Shown here one piece after another: positions 48,493-62,602 of a stretch of DNA of 64,000 nucleotides. The stretch covers positions 1-64,000 of the forward strand of contig NZ_JADEXG010000009.1 of NCBI RefSeq assembly GCF_015207255.1, in the 5' to 3' direction. Under the pieces are notes generated by a model. The model was not told the DNA's origin. It made no database searches and saw only the letters and a list, made by a program, of their open reading frames with translations. The DNA comes from Vasconcelosia minhoensis LEGE 07310 (GTDB taxonomy: Bacteria; Cyanobacteriota; Cyanobacteriia; Phormidesmidales; Phormidesmidaceae). Position 1 is the stretch's first letter. The number at the start of each line of letters is the position of its first letter. Position numbers and translations under genes: made by a program.

Positions 48493-50943
48493 CTACAGGA
48501 CTGAGCTGCTGCCATTGACAAAGGAGTGGGTCGTCGAGCCTACTGCGGTGAGGTCCTCTAGCGTTTGACCTAAGCTATCAGTCGTAGCCATGCTGTTTGC
48601 TCCGGTTGACCTGGAACCCACTCGAACGAAATCGACGTAGTCGAACCGGGCAAACTCGCCAGCCTGCTGCTGCCCACTGATGGTAAATGCATCGCCTGAC
48701 TGCAGCGCCAGCGTATCGATGGCTCGACTGACTTTGTTCTTTTCACTGACCCAGTTGCTTGGCAGCTTTTGGTCAAATGTCCAGCTTTGAGTCTTGCCAC
48801 CGACCGAGAAGCTGGCCGCCGACTGACCATCGTTCTCATCGTAGTAGCCCACCCGGATTTCATAGAGCCCCTCAGGCCCGTTGAAGATGCCTTTAGCCGT
48901 TCCCTGCTTGGCTTTGCTGTTTTTGAGGGAAATAAACTGATTCCCAGAAGCCCGAGCCGCAGCCACAGACTTAATCTGATAGCCCTGCAGCTGGAGGCTT
49001 TCAGCTTCAACTCTTAAAGAATACGGAGATTCCTGCTCTCCTGCCATCGGCCCTGAACTGTTCCCCGATGGCGGATCAGATTCAGCCGCCCGATTGCTTT
49101 CGACTGGAATGAAGTCTACATAGTCAAACCGAGCATACTCTCTGTCCTGCCGCTGGCCGGACAGCATGAAGGCATCGCCCGACGTTAACGACAGCGTATC
49201 AATCACTTGGACCACTTTATTCTCGGCGCTAACCCAGTTGCTCGGCAGCTTTTGGTCAAATGTCCAGCGCTTAGTCTGACCCCCGATCGAAAAACTCGCA
49301 GCAGAGCGACCATCGTTCTCGTCGTAGTAGCCGACCTGAATCTGGTAGAGCCCAGCCGGGCCTTGGAAAACGCCCTCAGCTGTTCCCTGCTGGGTGCCGC
49401 TGGTCTTTAAGGAGATAAATTGATCGCCAGAAGCCTGAGCAGCGGCGGCAGTGTTGAGCTGATAGCCGTTTAGCTTCAGCTTTTCAGCTTCGATGCGGAT
49501 GGGCGAACGAGGGGTAATGTCAGGTTGAGTCAGGGGTGGAGTAGGGGCCTCGGGCTGCGGTATGGGGGGTGTAGGCGCTGACGGCGAAGGCGTCCCCACA
49601 GGCACATCCTGACCGCCGAGAATAAGGAAATAGCCGTCTTTTCCGCCGCCCGCCTGGCCCTGAATCGGGTTGTCGGTAATCTGGCTGCCTTTGAAGTTGG
49701 TCGTAGTCGCGATCGCGGCTACGCCATCTCTCACGGCAATAACGGTGCCCTTCGCACTCGAAATTGGCGTCCAGGCATAGCGTGTTTTGAGATCGGGGCT
49801 GATAATCGCCAGAAAGCCGTCGTTGGCCACATAGCCGCTCACCTGCTGGCCTTCGATTTTCTGACTATCCCGGTCCTGGATGGAAGCCGACGCGCTACCG
49901 CTGAGATAGATATTACCGTCCTTGTCCGCCGTGATCGCATCGGGGGTGATGCTGTTGCCCTTACCGTCTGAACGGCGAGTGACCAGCCCTTGCCCCTTGA
50001 CCAAACCGCCGGTCTTGAGGTCATACTCGCCGTACCAGGTCATCGCCACTTTGCTGGTATTGTAGGAATTCGTGTACTTGTCGGTGATCACCATCTGCTC
50101 AGTCACTTTTTGAGCCAGGTCAGACGGTTCACGGCTAAAGATGGAATAGCCGATGCCGCCATTCACCCAGTTAGCTGAGTAGAGCTTGCCGTCTTGACCA
50201 AAGGCGATTCGCTCGCCTCGGGTATCGGCCAGAAGATTGACCGCATCGACGGCCTGAGAGCTATAGTCATAGTTGCTCCAGCGAGCCTGACCGTCGTAGG
50301 TCCAAGCCTGGGTAAAGGCGACCTGCAGGTCAACCCGGGCCTGCTTGAAGCCGGTAATCACCACCGCACCGCCGTCCTGGTCGGAGATGGCGACATCCTG
50401 AAAATAGCGGCGACCGCTGTTGCTGCTCCAGTCCTGCAGGGCCGCGCCGCTGCTGCTGTAGAGGGTGACGCGATCGCTTTTCCCAATCGGGAAATCCTGG
50501 AGGACAGCGACTTTTCCCGAGCTAGAAACGGCAATCCGCTCGGCTCTGTCCATGGGCTTGCTCCAGATCACTGTGCTGGCGTCTGGGCTGAGCACGGCAA
50601 TGCCGCTGCCGTAGGCCACTGCGATCTCTCCCGTATTTGGATTCACTTCCAGATCGCGCACCTGACCAGGCAGGCGAGTATTCGATAAAACTTGATTGGT
50701 CTGGCTGTCGTAGCGCATAACGATACCGTCACCGCCGCCGAGCAGGCTATACGGCTTGCCACCAGGGGAGTGATTGGGCGTTTGCCCGCCGATAATCACC
50801 GTTTGGCCATCCAGACTGATATCAACAGCTCTAGCCGAATCGTCTCCGCTGCCTCCTAGATAGCTGGCTGCGGACACGTCTAAGTTGTTGTCTTCAATAC
50901 CGTTTAGGAAACTAGGTTTGGTTGAATTTGAAGAAGGATTCAT
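48493..50943 (-). CDS. beta-propeller-type repeat protein with two carbohydrate-binding-like modules
   Basis: 816 residues. The N-terminal 445 residues repeat propeller-like strands (SYLGGSGDDSARAVDISLDGQTVIIGGQT, IVMRYDSQTNQVLS, ITPDAITADKDGNIYLSGSAS), as in SBBP-type cyanobacterial proteins. A proline-rich linker (about 450-485) precedes two ~130-residue modules (about 480-615 and 640-780) that are 161 residues apart and share YDENDGxSAASFS, TFDQKLPSNWVS and FARFDYVDF; the EAExLxLxGYQ start and overall pattern fit CBM6/35-like sugar-binding modules. There is no N-terminal signal peptide, so secretion by another route or a cytoplasmic role is possible. Start ATG 50943. Function unknown. Confidence 0.7.
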   Translation of the reverse strand: MNPSSNSTKPSFLNGIEDNNLDVSAASYLGGSGDDSARAVDISLDGQTVIIGGQTPNHSPGGKPYSLLGGGDGIVMRYDSQTNQVLSNTRLPGQVRDLEVNPNTGEIAVAYGSGIAVLSPDASTVIWSKPMDRAERIAVSSSGKVAVLQDFPIGKSDRVTLYSSSGAALQDWSSNSGRRYFQDVAISDQDGGAVVITGFKQARVDLQVAFTQAWTYDGQARWSNYDYSSQAVDAVNLLADTRGERIAFGQDGKLYSANWVNGGIGYSIFSREPSDLAQKVTEQMVITDKYTNSYNTSKVAMTWYGEYDLKTGGLVKGQGLVTRRSDGKGNSITPDAITADKDGNIYLSGSASASIQDRDSQKIEGQQVSGYVANDGFLAIISPDLKTRYAWTPISSAKGTVIAVRDGVAAIATTTNFKGSQITDNPIQGQAGGGKDGYFLILGGQDVPVGTPSPSAPTPPIPQPEAPTPPLTQPDITPRSPIRIEAEKLKLNGYQLNTAAAAQASGDQFISLKTSGTQQGTAEGVFQGPAGLYQIQVGYYDENDGRSAASFSIGGQTKRWTFDQKLPSNWVSAENKVVQVIDTLSLTSGDAFMLSGQRQDREYARFDYVDFIPVESNRAAESDPPSGNSSGPMAGEQESPYSLRVEAESLQLQGYQIKSVAAARASGNQFISLKNSKAKQGTAKGIFNGPEGLYEIRVGYYDENDGQSAASFSVGGKTQSWTFDQKLPSNWVSEKNKVSRAIDTLALQSGDAFTISGQQQAGEFARFDYVDFVRVGSRSTGANSMATTDSLGQTLEDLTAVGSTTHSFVNGSSSVL
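48622..49500 (-). repeat. 483-bp period duplication of a coding module
   Basis: Two copies (about 49103-49500 and 48622-49017) align with few changes; for example CAGTTGCTTGGCAGCTTTTG at 48752 and the CTCGG variant 483 bp later. They encode the two carbohydrate-binding-like modules of the protein above. Confidence 0.8.
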
Positions 50944-54436: not shown

Positions 54437-56170
54437 ATGCCTGATGAATCTCCCAAAATTCTGATTATCGATGGCTCTCAGCCAGACCGGGCGATGCTGA
54501 GCGACTACCTCAGACAGGACCGGCGCAGCCAATATACTGTCTTGGAAGCAGACTCTGGCGAGCAGGCCCTGACCCTGTGCCAGACAGAGCAGCCAGACGT
54601 GTTACTGCTCAGCTCGCTGCTGCCCGACATGGCCGGGCTTGACCTTTTGTCTAGCCTGAGACAGCAGCTGTCTCGCCCAGTACCGGTCATTCTGCTGACT
54701 GAGAAAAGCGACCAGACCATTGCGAGGCAGGCCGTCAGGCAGGGGGTCAAGGACTATGTTGCGAAGGACGGACTCTCGGCCCAAGACGTCTGGCAGGTCA
54801 TTGACTCAGCCCTGACCCAAACCCATTTGCAGCGACTACTTAATAAAAACCGGCAGCAGCAGACCCTGATCGCCGAGGTCGCCCTGCGGATTCGGGAAGC
54901 GAGCGGTACCCAGCAGGTGTTGGACACGGCAGTTGAGGAAGTCAGGCAGTTTTTGCACTGCGATCGCGCCGTTATCTATCAGATTATACCAGACCAACCA
55001 GACATTATCGTCGCCGAATCGGTTGGGGCTGGCTGGCGACAGTCCCTGGGCTGTCTGATTCAGGATACCTGCTTTCAAGCTCAGGAGACCCGGCATTATC
55101 AGCAGGGGCAGGCGACCGTCATTGACGACGTTTATAGCGCCGAACTCTCGCCCTGCCATTTAGAGCTGCTGGAGTCGTTTCAGGTTCGGGCCAATCTGGT
55201 CGTGCCGGTGATGCTGCACCCGACTCAGCAAAATGGCTTCTCGGCACACCTGTGGGGGCTGCTGATTGCCCACCAGTGCAGCAGCCCGCGACATTGGGAA
55301 AGCGATGAGCTAGGAATGTTCGAGAAGCTGGCCGTACAGATCGCGATTTCGCTCCAGCAGGCCAGGCTGGTTGACGATTTGACGGCTGAACTCAGCCGTC
55401 GGCAGCAGGCTGAGGCCGACTTACAGCAGCGAGCCGATGAGCTAGAGCGGGTGAATACTGTCCTGTTTGAAGCGACAGAGTCGGTCAGACAGCGCAATCG
55501 AGAGCTTGACGAGTTCACCTATATTGTTTCCCATGACCTGAAAGCACCGCTGCGGGCGATCTCCAATCTGTCTGACTGGCTGATGGAGGATCTCGGCGGT
55601 CAGCTCCCTGAAGAAAATCAGCGGCAGCTCTCGCTACTCCAGTCTCGCGTTTTGCGAATGGACGGCCTGATCGATGCCTTGCTCAAGTATTCGCGACTAG
55701 GACGGCTATCGATCGAGAAGACAGACGTTGATGTAGCTAGGCTGCTAGCGGAGATTCAGGCAGGCTTATCGCGGCCACCGGAGTTTGACATCCAGATACA
55801 GGGTGAAATGCCGACGTTGCACACCGAGCAGGTTGCCCTGGAGCAGGTACTCACTAATCTAATGAGCAACGCGATTAAGCACCATCACCGCTCTGATGGC
55901 ACAGTGCAGATTTCCTGGCAGAAACAGGAGCGGTTTTATGAATTTACGATCGCCGACGATGGCCCCGGTATCGCGCCTGAAAACCAAGAGAAGATTTTCA
56001 GCATTTTTCAGCGCCTCAATTACTCTAATGCAGATAGTACCCGGTCATCTGAGAGCACGGGTATCGGTCTCACTATTGTGAAAAAGCTAGTTGAGGATCG
56101 CGGTGGTCGGGTGACTCTGAAGTCGGCGCTTGGGCAGGGCAGTGTTTTCCGCTTTACCTGGCCGGGGTGA
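54437..56170 (+). CDS. DXCF-type cyanobacteriochrome histidine kinase with degenerate receiver
   Basis: 577 residues from ATG 54437. Residues 8-125 form a receiver lacking both the acidic pocket Asp (IDGS in place of DD) and the phosphoacceptor Asp (VLLLSSLLPD: Ser 59 where Asp is expected). Residues 140-310 form a GAF domain with the cyanobacteriochrome marks: second Cys in DTCF (210-213), chromophore Cys in PCHLELLESFQV (Cys 240, His 241) and LWGLLIAHQC. DXCF-type members bind phycoviolobilin or phycocyanobilin and usually sense blue/green light. A coiled coil leads to HisKA (SHDLKAPLRA, His 366) and an intact ATPase domain. Merits: photoreceptor kinase, soluble. It follows merR by 99 nt. 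Confidence 0.88.
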   Translation: MPDESPKILIIDGSQPDRAMLSDYLRQDRRSQYTVLEADSGEQALTLCQTEQPDVLLLSSLLPDMAGLDLLSSLRQQLSRPVPVILLTEKSDQTIARQAVRQGVKDYVAKDGLSAQDVWQVIDSALTQTHLQRLLNKNRQQQTLIAEVALRIREASGTQQVLDTAVEEVRQFLHCDRAVIYQIIPDQPDIIVAESVGAGWRQSLGCLIQDTCFQAQETRHYQQGQATVIDDVYSAELSPCHLELLESFQVRANLVVPVMLHPTQQNGFSAHLWGLLIAHQCSSPRHWESDELGMFEKLAVQIAISLQQARLVDDLTAELSRRQQAEADLQQRADELERVNTVLFEATESVRQRNRELDEFTYIVSHDLKAPLRAISNLSDWLMEDLGGQLPEENQRQLSLLQSRVLRMDGLIDALLKYSRLGRLSIEKTDVDVARLLAEIQAGLSRPPEFDIQIQGEMPTLHTEQVALEQVLTNLMSNAIKHHHRSDGTVQISWQKQERFYEFTIADDGPGIAPENQEKIFSIFQRLNYSNADSTRSSESTGIGLTIVKKLVEDRGGRVTLKSALGQGSVFRFTWPG

Positions 56171-59017: not shown

Positions 59018-62000
59018 TTAAATCCTTGATCCTATATGTTGGGAGACTTTAAGCGCTGAATCTTCCGGAATCGGGATGGGAATCCGTGAGAGAGGGCTCG
59101 ATTCTTCGGTTGCACCTAACGCTTTTAGGGTTGCTTTTTGAGCATCGGCCAGCCCGCTGACGCCGGTGATCTTCAGGCCGTCGTAGGGTCGGGGCGTGCG
59201 GCATGTGTTCAAGCAGGTCTGTGTTTCTAAGCTCCACTGATTAAGGGTTTCATCGAAGCTGCCGCTCCAGAAGACGGGCTGAGGGGCTGAGGAGTTTGCT
59301 GACGGTTCGGCGGGGGGAAACGCGATCGCAGAAACCAGTTCGGTATGCCCCTGAAACGTGTGAGCAGATTGCCCCGTTTCAAGATCCCAAACGCTGATCG
59401 CCCGGTCGAAGCCGCCGCTCAGTAAGGTGCGCCCGTCTGGCCTAAAGGCGAGGGCCACCACCGGCCCGGTGTGCCCGGCAAACGTATGACAGCAGGTTCC
59501 CGTTGACAGATCCCATAGCTTAACGGTTTGGTCGTAGCTGCCGCTGGCCAGCCACCGCCCATCGGGGCTAAATCGAATCGTCCAGACCGTGTCTTGATGG
59601 CCTTCTAGAATTTGAATGCACTGCTCTGACTGAGCGGCATAAAGCCTGATCGTTCGATCCAGGCTACAGCTGGCCAGCCAGGGCTGGTAGGGATGAAAGG
59701 CCACCGACCAGACCCAGGCGGTATGGCCCTGCAAAGTCGATAGGCACTGCCCGGTTTCGGCATTCCACAGCTTGACGGTGCGATCGCCACTGCCGCTCGC
59801 CAGCAGCGTATCGGTTTCATAGGCGGCGGTGGGCGGTGCAAAGGCGACTGACCAGGCTCGGTTGGCATGGCCTCGCAGGGTTCGCACGACTTCTCCTGAC
59901 TGGGGATTCCACAGCTTAATCGTTTGGTCTTCGTGCCCGGTCGCGAGCCACTGCCCGTCCGCTTTGAACGACAGAGATAAAATACCGTTGGTATGGCCTT
60001 TCCAGGTTTTAGCACAGTGGCCTGTTTTGAGATCCCACAGCCGGGTCGCGTGATCATCGCTGCCGCTGGCTAGCTGCTGACCATCGGGGCTAAAGGCCAC
60101 CGACCAGACCCGGTTGCCGTGTTCTCTCAGAGTTCTGACGCACTGTTGGGTGCTGACCTGCCAGACCTTTACGGTTTGGTCATAGCTGGAGCTGGCCAGC
60201 AGCTGACCATTGGGGCTGAAGGCCAGCATGGTGACGGTCGCGGGATGTCCCGGCCAGCTGTGCAGGCACTCGCCGGTGGACAGATCCCAGAGCTTAAGGG
60301 TGCCGTTGAAGCTGCCGCTGGCAACAGATTGCCCATCGGGGCTAATCGCCACCGTTTTCACCCAGGACTGATGGCCGACGAAGGTGCGATCGCATTCCAT
60401 ACTCTCCAGATTCCACCGTTTCAACGTGCAGTCCTCACTTCCGCTGACCAGCAGCTTCCCATCCGGGCTGAAGGCCGCCGACCAGACCCGGCCCTGATGG
60501 CCTTCTAGAACCTGACAGGGGACTGTTTCGACATGGGGATCGTCCAGCTGCCAGAGACGAATGGTGGCGTCTTGACTACAGCTGGCCAGGAGTTTTCCCT
60601 GGGGGTGAAATGCGATCGCGTTGATCGTATTGGTATGGCCGGGTAGCGATCGCAGGCATCGTCCGGTGCTGGCATCCCAGAGCTTGACCAGCCGGTCGTC
60701 GCCGCCGGTAGCCAGAATGGCGGCGTCAGCATCTGCAAGGGGAGACTGGGGGGCAAAGGCCGCCGCCCAGGTCCAGATGGCATCAACTCTGAAAGCGGTA
60801 ATTTGCTGATAGCTGGACACATCCCAAATCTGCACTTCGCCGCTGGTGTCGCTGGTGGCGAGCCACTGACCATCTGAGCGATAGGCGGTGCAGGAAACGC
60901 CGCCAAAGGTTTCGGCAAAGACCGACCGCCTGACCTGGGCGCAGGTCAGGTCGGTGTTGAGCAGGTTGGCTTTGACAAAGTCAGCCTGCCAGATCTGACA
61001 GTAGGAAAAGTCAAAATCGGATAGATCGACCTGTAAATAGGTCAACAGATTAATCAGGTTACCCACGGCATAGCCCGCCGGGCCTGCTTGCTGGAGGTAC
61101 TGGATTCGCTGAATAATCAGGTCAATCAGCTTGCCTTCACTCCCCGCCTGAGCCTCTGCCTGGGTGACCAGCGGCGCGACGATAATGTGAATCTGATTTT
61201 TGCGGATGTAGTCTTTAGCGGTTGCCTTTAGCAGGGCAAAACGCTTGAGAAAAGGGGTCGGGCCATTGGGGAGTGAGTGGGTCAGTTCAGCGCAAAAGCG
61301 CTCAATCAGCTGGCCCGTGACGTACTCCATCATCACGGGCTGCTGGGTAAAGCCCTGGGACGTTTGCTCAATCAGCGATCGCCCCCGCAGGGACTCCAGC
61401 GCTTCTAGCAGAACTGGAGCTGAAACCGAGGGTGCCATATCTGCGAGCAGTTCGGCGATGGAGACGGGCGCACGGTTGATGGCGAGCCAGTACATGACGG
61501 TTTCTTCGAGAGTCGAAATCCGCTCGATCTGGCGCTTCAGCAGCTGGCAAATGCCGTTGAAAACGGCGATGTCCTGCTCTAAAAAGCTCGTGATGTTTCC
61601 GCCAAAGAGGTCGCAGATTGAGGTCGCCGTGATCTTGAGGGCCAGCGGATTGCCCTGGTAGCGTTCGATCAGCTGATGCATCGCGCCGTCCGCTCCCCTG
61701 ATCCCTTTGGCCTGGAGCAGCGGCTCGGCATCTGCTGGCGGCAGTCCTCGCAGCTGGAGGGCACGAACCCGGGTTTCTTCTCCCTGGAGGATGCTGACTT
61801 CCAGGGGCTTCTCCCGGCTGGTAATGAGCAGACTGCTCTGATGACGAGACTCGCCGACGCGCTGTAGAAGTTCGCCATAGTCGGCGTAGCCGGCTCGATA
61901 GGTGCCTAGAGGCTGGCCTGCCTCAAACAGGGCGTCAAAGTTATCGAGCACGAGCAGACACCGAACGGTTCGCAGGCTTTCGATCAGCAAGGTCAGCCGG

Positions 62001-62602
62001 GCGCTTCTGGATTCGGGCAGTGCGCCGTTCTGTCCCTGGGCTAAAAATTGCAACAGGGCCGCGAGGAAGCAGTCGAAGGGCGGGGTATCCCGGAGCGATC
62101 GCCAGTACAACAGCTGAAACTCCGGTTGGACCTGCTCGGCTAGCCTGACCGACAGTGAGGTCTTACCGACGCCGCCCATGCCTAAAATTGCGACCAGGCG
62201 ACATTGCTCCTGGGTTATCCACTGGCTGAGGCGCTCCAGTTCTGAGGCGCGACCATAAAAGTGGGAGGCGTCAACCGCTTCTCCCCAGTCCTGACCGGGA
62301 GATAGCGCTGTGGAATCAGGCGAGGAGGGAGCTGTACTTTCCGCTGCCTTCTGCTGGTGGTGGCGCTTCAGGACGGCCTGAAAGTTAAATTTGGTGACCG
62401 ACTCCCCCAGCCCTGATGAAAGACACCGCCACAGCTTTGATCCCACGTCTTTGATATAGCCGGTGTCGTAGCCGGTAGCGCGGGCGATGGCTTCATAGGA
62501 TAGCCCCTCCCACGCATGGCGAAACACCAGTTTCTGAACCTGAGTTAATCGTCCTCGTTCTATAGCCCCTTCAACCAGGGCAAGTGCCTCTTCAATGTCC
62601 AT
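59018..62602 (-). CDS. STAND/NB-ARC protein with WD40 double propeller
   Basis: 1194 residues. The N-terminal 90 residues contain an HTH-like segment (GRLTQVQKLVFRHAWEGLSYEAIARATGYD), as in the vMAP-type N-terminal domain of cyanobacterial STAND proteins. The NTPase (about 115-450) has a Walker A GMGGVGKTSL at 141-150, CLLVLDNFDALF and the NPLALKITA motif. Helical spacer (about 450-545), a short pentapeptide-like stretch and then 13-14 WD40 repeats (about 560-1150), enough for two seven-blade propellers. STAND NTPases of this build act as molecular switches; many are linked to antiphage or programmed-death systems, but this one has no recognised effector domain. Start ATG 62602. Confidence 0.9.
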   Translation of the reverse strand: MDIEEALALVEGAIERGRLTQVQKLVFRHAWEGLSYEAIARATGYDTGYIKDVGSKLWRCLSSGLGESVTKFNFQAVLKRHHQQKAAESTAPSSPDSTALSPGQDWGEAVDASHFYGRASELERLSQWITQEQCRLVAILGMGGVGKTSLSVRLAEQVQPEFQLLYWRSLRDTPPFDCFLAALLQFLAQGQNGALPESRSARLTLLIESLRTVRCLLVLDNFDALFEAGQPLGTYRAGYADYGELLQRVGESRHQSSLLITSREKPLEVSILQGEETRVRALQLRGLPPADAEPLLQAKGIRGADGAMHQLIERYQGNPLALKITATSICDLFGGNITSFLEQDIAVFNGICQLLKRQIERISTLEETVMYWLAINRAPVSIAELLADMAPSVSAPVLLEALESLRGRSLIEQTSQGFTQQPVMMEYVTGQLIERFCAELTHSLPNGPTPFLKRFALLKATAKDYIRKNQIHIIVAPLVTQAEAQAGSEGKLIDLIIQRIQYLQQAGPAGYAVGNLINLLTYLQVDLSDFDFSYCQIWQADFVKANLLNTDLTCAQVRRSVFAETFGGVSCTAYRSDGQWLATSDTSGEVQIWDVSSYQQITAFRVDAIWTWAAAFAPQSPLADADAAILATGGDDRLVKLWDASTGRCLRSLPGHTNTINAIAFHPQGKLLASCSQDATIRLWQLDDPHVETVPCQVLEGHQGRVWSAAFSPDGKLLVSGSEDCTLKRWNLESMECDRTFVGHQSWVKTVAISPDGQSVASGSFNGTLKLWDLSTGECLHSWPGHPATVTMLAFSPNGQLLASSSYDQTVKVWQVSTQQCVRTLREHGNRVWSVAFSPDGQQLASGSDDHATRLWDLKTGHCAKTWKGHTNGILSLSFKADGQWLATGHEDQTIKLWNPQSGEVVRTLRGHANRAWSVAFAPPTAAYETDTLLASGSGDRTVKLWNAETGQCLSTLQGHTAWVWSVAFHPYQPWLASCSLDRTIRLYAAQSEQCIQILEGHQDTVWTIRFSPDGRWLASGSYDQTVKLWDLSTGTCCHTFAGHTGPVVALAFRPDGRTLLSGGFDRAISVWDLETGQSAHTFQGHTELVSAIAFPPAEPSANSSAPQPVFWSGSFDETLNQWSLETQTCLNTCRTPRPYDGLKITGVSGLADAQKATLKALGATEESSPLSRIPIPIPEDSALKVSQHIGSRI

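Follow-up and report, generated by a model that had tools for sequence, protein, structure and literature searches.

A PPHK-type cyanobacteriochrome histidine kinase of Vasconcelosia minhoensis with a degenerate receiver and a probable single light input

The stretch of Vasconcelosia minhoensis LEGE 07310 DNA analyzed here (the window; 64,000 nucleotides) contains a histidine kinase gene (54437..56170, + strand) with 577 open codons, in agreement with the frame and strand assigned earlier from the letters alone (the sequence-only reading). The 577-aa product has the domain order REC-GAF(DXCF)-HisKA-HATPase, and the Pfam matches of all four domains exceed the curated cut-offs. The receiver comprises residues 8-111 (54458..54769, +; Response_reg, 4.8e-19). 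According to the AlphaFold2 model, it is continued from alpha5 by a long helix (residues 115-154; 54779..54898, +), which leads into the GAF domain (residues 159-306; 54911..55354, +; Pfam GAF, 4.6e-21). The kinase part consists of HisKA (residues 357-422; 55505..55702, +; 1.7e-10) with H366 (55532-55534), and HATPase_c (residues 465-576; 55829..56164, +; 4.8e-26). The kinase motifs SHDLKAPLRAI (H366), NLMSNAIK, DDGPGI and STGIGL, including the N, G1 and G2 motifs of the ATPase, are intact, as had been proposed; Pfam and the motif positions agree on this. Two other long frames of the window were inspected by eye. One (59018-62602, - strand; 1194 aa) has an ATPase-like region at its N-terminus and a long tail of WD40-type repeats; the other (48493-50943, - strand; 816 aa) has two similar C-terminal modules resembling carbohydrate-binding repeats.

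The photosensory part is a DXCF-type GAF domain. The DTCF motif (residues 210-213; 55064..55075, +) contains the second cysteine, C212 (55070-55072), and the canonical chromophore cysteine is followed by histidine (C240-H241; 55154..55159, +; C240 at 55154-55156). These residues, the latter within PCHLELLESF, and the LWGLLIAHQC strand, which begins at residue 272, are placed in a single GAF domain by Pfam, as the sequence-only reading had it. Both cysteines align ungapped with their TePixJ counterparts, with a spacing of 28 residues in both proteins, so that DTCF/PCH is not a chance motif. The window GAF matches the TePixJ structures 3VV4, 4FOF and 2M7U with E values of 3e-30 to 2e-29, and a fold search with the window model returns TePixJ, AnPixJg2 and PPHK. 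The proposed assignment to the DXCF cyanobacteriochromes thus survives the sequence tests (D210-T211-C212-F213, C240-H241 and the TePixJ spacing). PHY and PAS_2 are absent from the protein in the Pfam scan, i.e., this is a stand-alone GAF and not a PAS-GAF-PHY module. In addition to both cysteines, the histidine after the canonical one and their spacing, the DXCF protein TePixJ (4FOF, 4GLQ, 3VV4) shares with the window GAF the ANLVVP and LIAHQ segments. TePixJ is, however, a chemotaxis-type receptor and not a kinase, and its beta hairpin is 8 residues shorter than that of the window GAF (PTQQNGFS region).

The red/green cyanobacteriochrome lineage is marked by a Trp at D-2, the W of WXDXXL (PMC11284453); residue 208 of the window protein is Ile, not Trp, and an extended red/green (XRG) cyanobacteriochrome was rejected. 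Two Phe positions have been linked to trapped-twist and teal photoproducts (PMC5240096). Assigned through an alignment with NpR6012g4, they correspond in the window to Ile191 (beta2) and Phe248 (helix), a combination that may favour green over teal for the photoproduct. A ferredoxin-dependent bilin reductase is encoded in the genome (PF05996, 1.6e-71), so phycobilin should be available.

In the receiver, three of the catalytic five, namely DD1 (D12), T88 and K110 (54764..54766, +), are retained. DD2 is replaced by Gly13 (acidic pair D12-G13; 54470..54475, +), and the phosphoacceptor position is occupied by Ser59 (agc; 54611..54613, +), where 81/86 relatives have Asp. The residue after T88 (T+1) is Glu89 (54698..54703, + for the pair), although Gly or Ala stands there in 76/86 relatives. 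The switch aromatic residue Y107 (K-3), Pro at D+4 and Gly at D+8 are retained. A pseudo-receiver is defined as a protein region that matches Response_reg and lacks at least one of DD1, DD2, D, T and K (PMC12632262). With DD2 and D missing, the receiver domain of the window protein is a pseudo-receiver by this definition, although otherwise still receiver-like. The sequence-only reading had described a receiver devoid of both the acidic-pocket Asp and the phosphoacceptor Asp. Ser59 confirms the latter, while of the acidic residues only the second is lost (G13) and D12 is retained; the pseudo-receiver call itself is borne out by the alignment to active-site positions (G13, S59, E89). The phospho-Asp is also absent in 5/86 relatives, always replaced by Asn, and only one of these (L160) has no acidic DD2 either. 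Taken singly, the receiver lesions are therefore not unique, which counts against reading them as a reduction to a single input. The same genome encodes a 791-aa REC-GAF-GGDEF-EAL protein (L060:4653-7025; G000:C64) with a degenerate receiver as well, in which DD is replaced by AH and the phospho-Asp by Asn; in the GAF domain of this protein QCH is retained, with DHSF in place of DXCF.

The closest solved structure to the window protein is PPHK of Leptolyngbya sp. JSC-1 (6OAP, 6OAQ, 6OB8; Shin et al. 2019, doi 10.1073/pnas.1910855116), which also ranks first by sequence across the full REC-GAF (phmmer, 2.4e-63). The AlphaFold2 model of window residues 1-336 (mean pLDDT 89.8, pTM 0.68) superposes on PPHK over 299-303 residues (VIA Z 27.9-28.0, rmsd 4.9-5.0 A; Foldseek 2.6e-32). 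The two proteins have in common the REC-GAF tandem (36-38% identity), the overall fold over ~300 residues, a histidine kinase fed by one chromophore GAF, and the REC-GAF-HisKA-HATPase order. The architecture of the window protein is thus an already known one, the PPHK type. The receiver of PPHK is live and, according to the PDB titles, was solved in the BeF3- state, whereas that of the window protein is dead; PPHK has VEDQYF where the window has DXCF, and its Pg state lies at 562 nm. Light and phosphorylation are integrated by PPHK as a molecular logic OR (review, PMC8584932). In the REC-GAF tree, PPHK is placed on a different branch, outside the clade of the window protein. PPHK itself is not among the sampled genomes, in which the top whole-REC-GAF matches reach 66-68% identity; its authors reportedly invoke an upstream photoreceptor.

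Two other kinases bear comparison. LvrB of Leptospira (PMC13269768) resembles the window protein in its N-terminal receiver, the helix toward HisKA and the role of the receiver in signal input. In LvrB, however, one helix connects the receiver directly to HisKA and the receiver acts by phosphorylation, whereas the window protein has a GAF domain in between and a dead receiver. CikA, among the CikA/KaiA-type pseudo-receivers (PMC12632262), is likewise a kinase with a non-phosphorylatable receiver. A CikA-type domain order was considered for the window protein and rejected. The pseudo-receiver of CikA is C-terminal; that of the window protein is N-terminal and derived from a live receiver.

Full-length homologues of the window protein are present in its family and beyond. 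A single-sequence scan of the genome contigs returned 0 relatives and an alignment query 80. A tree built from 89 REC-GAF sequences places the window protein in a clade of eight (SH-aLRT 96), whose members are REC-GAF-HK proteins of 577-659 aa. The other seven, from Xenococcus PCC 7305 (L086), Leptolyngbya cf. ectocarpi LEGE 11479 (L051/L098), Phormidesmis LEGE 11477 (L054/L104) and genomes G027, G234, G242 and G031, have equal domain order, similar length and 41-49% full-length identity to it. DD, D, T and K are intact in the receivers of all seven, and six of them carry both DXCF and the canonical cysteine. The exception, G242 (L053:6187-7986), has an intact receiver and has lost both chromophore cysteines (DHAF, NWH). 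The window protein combines a DXCF sensor with a dead receiver, and within the clade receiver death is specific to the window lineage. Two other related REC-GAF-HK genes deviate in their own ways. One (L044; G339:C338:3056-4750) has an in-frame TAA and may be decaying or represent a split frame; in the other (L058:3605-5539, the second copy of G028), HEPCL replaces DXCF, with the Cys kept and the Asp-X-Cys-Phe pattern lost.

The gene neighbourhood differs as well. In 6/8 clade members, the kinase gene directly follows, on the same strand, genes for a PAS-GAF-PHY-HK bacteriophytochrome (BphP) and a single-domain response regulator (RR); G242 has kept this operon. The same order precedes longer REC-GAF multidomain genes in Nostocales, Tychonema, Leptolyngbya-type and other cyanobacteria (L100, L120, L127, L130, L138, L147, L151, L153, L158 and L161). 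The BphP-RR genes are not directly upstream of the window gene, which has a MerR-family gene on one side and a small ORF, unmatched in Pfam, on the other. Xenococcus has no adjacent BphP-RR operon either, and its receiver is live; standing alone thus does not force receiver decay. That the window gene left the operon was rejected as a firm claim, since the order of the window and Xenococcus branches at the clade base is not settled by the tree. A PHY search of the window genome (completeness 100, 161 contigs) gave one weak match (E 4.8e-10), a knotless-type protein without PAS_2, and a search with a bacteriophytochrome as query yielded no close homologue there. A strong PHY match was obtained in 7/7 tested genomes carrying a related REC-GAF-HK gene. 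The co-absence of a canonical phytochrome from the window genome is a single event and no more than suggestive; as statistical proof, phytochrome co-loss was rejected because ~1/3 of the genomes in the family have no strong PHY match, a base rate that is too high.

The tempo of receiver evolution was assessed by estimating branch lengths for each domain on a fixed topology, with the receiver expectation taken from the scaled GAF+HK tree and 100 simulated alignments. The terminal branch of the window protein measures 1.28 in the receiver, against 0.48 in GAF and 0.39 in HK. The receiver branch is thus ~3x longer than the 0.43 expected from GAF+HK, and none of the 100 simulations gave one as long (longest, 0.75). 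Within the window protein, the acceleration is confined to the receiver. By itself it is compatible with relaxed constraint and with a new function alike.

The receiver lesions together with the receiver-only acceleration point to a dual-input kinase reduced to its light input: the window protein is probably a PPHK-type REC-cyanobacteriochrome histidine kinase that lost one of two inputs. In such a kinase, the GAF would bind phycobilin via C240, with a further link via C212 at C10 in the dark state. The dark state would absorb blue light, and the photoproduct would most likely be green. Photoisomerisation would break the C212 bond, and the change would travel along the GAF-to-HisKA helix into the HisKA dimer. 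The kinase/phosphatase balance toward a separate single-domain response regulator could be set in this way. The ancestral N-terminal receiver would have been the second input; its phosphodonor was probably another kinase, e.g., the bacteriophytochrome encoded next to the REC-GAF-HK gene in relatives. For the present receiver no phosphorylation is expected, and it may serve as a fixed part of the dimer or scaffold.

The view that the partner regulator is encoded elsewhere survives the sequence tests and may be retained. The nearest kinase paralogue in the genome lies on contig C157 (52% identical over the kinase region) and is followed by a single-domain regulator. A second regulator gene, on C114, encodes a protein with 43% identity to the G027 operon regulator. 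The two best candidate partners of the window kinase are the regulators at C157:10861-11310 and C114:5327-5749.

Several other explanations of the receiver could be considered. Sequencing or assembly errors are hardly credible: nothing beyond the single draft assembly speaks for them, the reading frame is intact, and several separate lesions (G13, S59, E89) with a receiver-wide branch excess go beyond a few miscalled bases, which the receiver-only acceleration rules out. Decay of the whole gene, with the receiver as the first part to go in a kinase that no longer matters, is improbable as well. It would be in line with the loss of the receiver active site, with a gene standing alone without operon partners, and with the in-frame stop in the related G339 copy. 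Nevertheless, the 577-codon ORF is intact, all kinase motifs and both cysteines are retained, and the GAF and HK branches (0.48, 0.39) are of ordinary length; an acceleration limited to the receiver argues against such decay.

A pseudo-receiver with a new active job, binding a ligand or protein and gating the light-driven kinase, so that two inputs remain, deserves more weight and is still rather unlikely. Kinases whose pseudo-receivers are gated by a ligand have been described (PMC12632262); analogous cases are ShkA, where c-di-GMP is bound, and CikA, with KaiB and quinones as binders. AlphaFold2 gives a high-confidence receiver fold, T88, Y107 and K110 are retained, and new selection would explain the faster evolution no less well than relaxed constraint. 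On the other hand, the lesions are those expected from simple loss, the neighbours include no partner gene, and same-genus sister sequences showing renewed conservation are absent. The docking or signal-gating role suggested for the receiver in the sequence-only reading is accordingly one possibility, and a lost phosphorylation input fits the evidence at least as well.

With a lost phosphorylation input as the preferred reading, the window protein represents a well-bracketed case of the transition from a live receiver to a pseudo-receiver. The activation mechanism of bacterial pseudo-receivers has been called a mystery in a recent review (PMC12632262). It is conceivable, though doubtful, that in this family each of the two inputs is lost on its own, the phosphorylation arm in the window lineage and the photosensor in G242, which would make both proteins natural single-arm versions of the OR gate; the window pseudo-receiver could then act as a permanent on/off clamp or offer a new ligand site. 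PPHK is the structural model for one protein merging light and phosphorylation. Since the phosphorylation arm has decayed in the window lineage and the light arm seemingly in G242, the contribution of each arm could be tested without engineered mutants.
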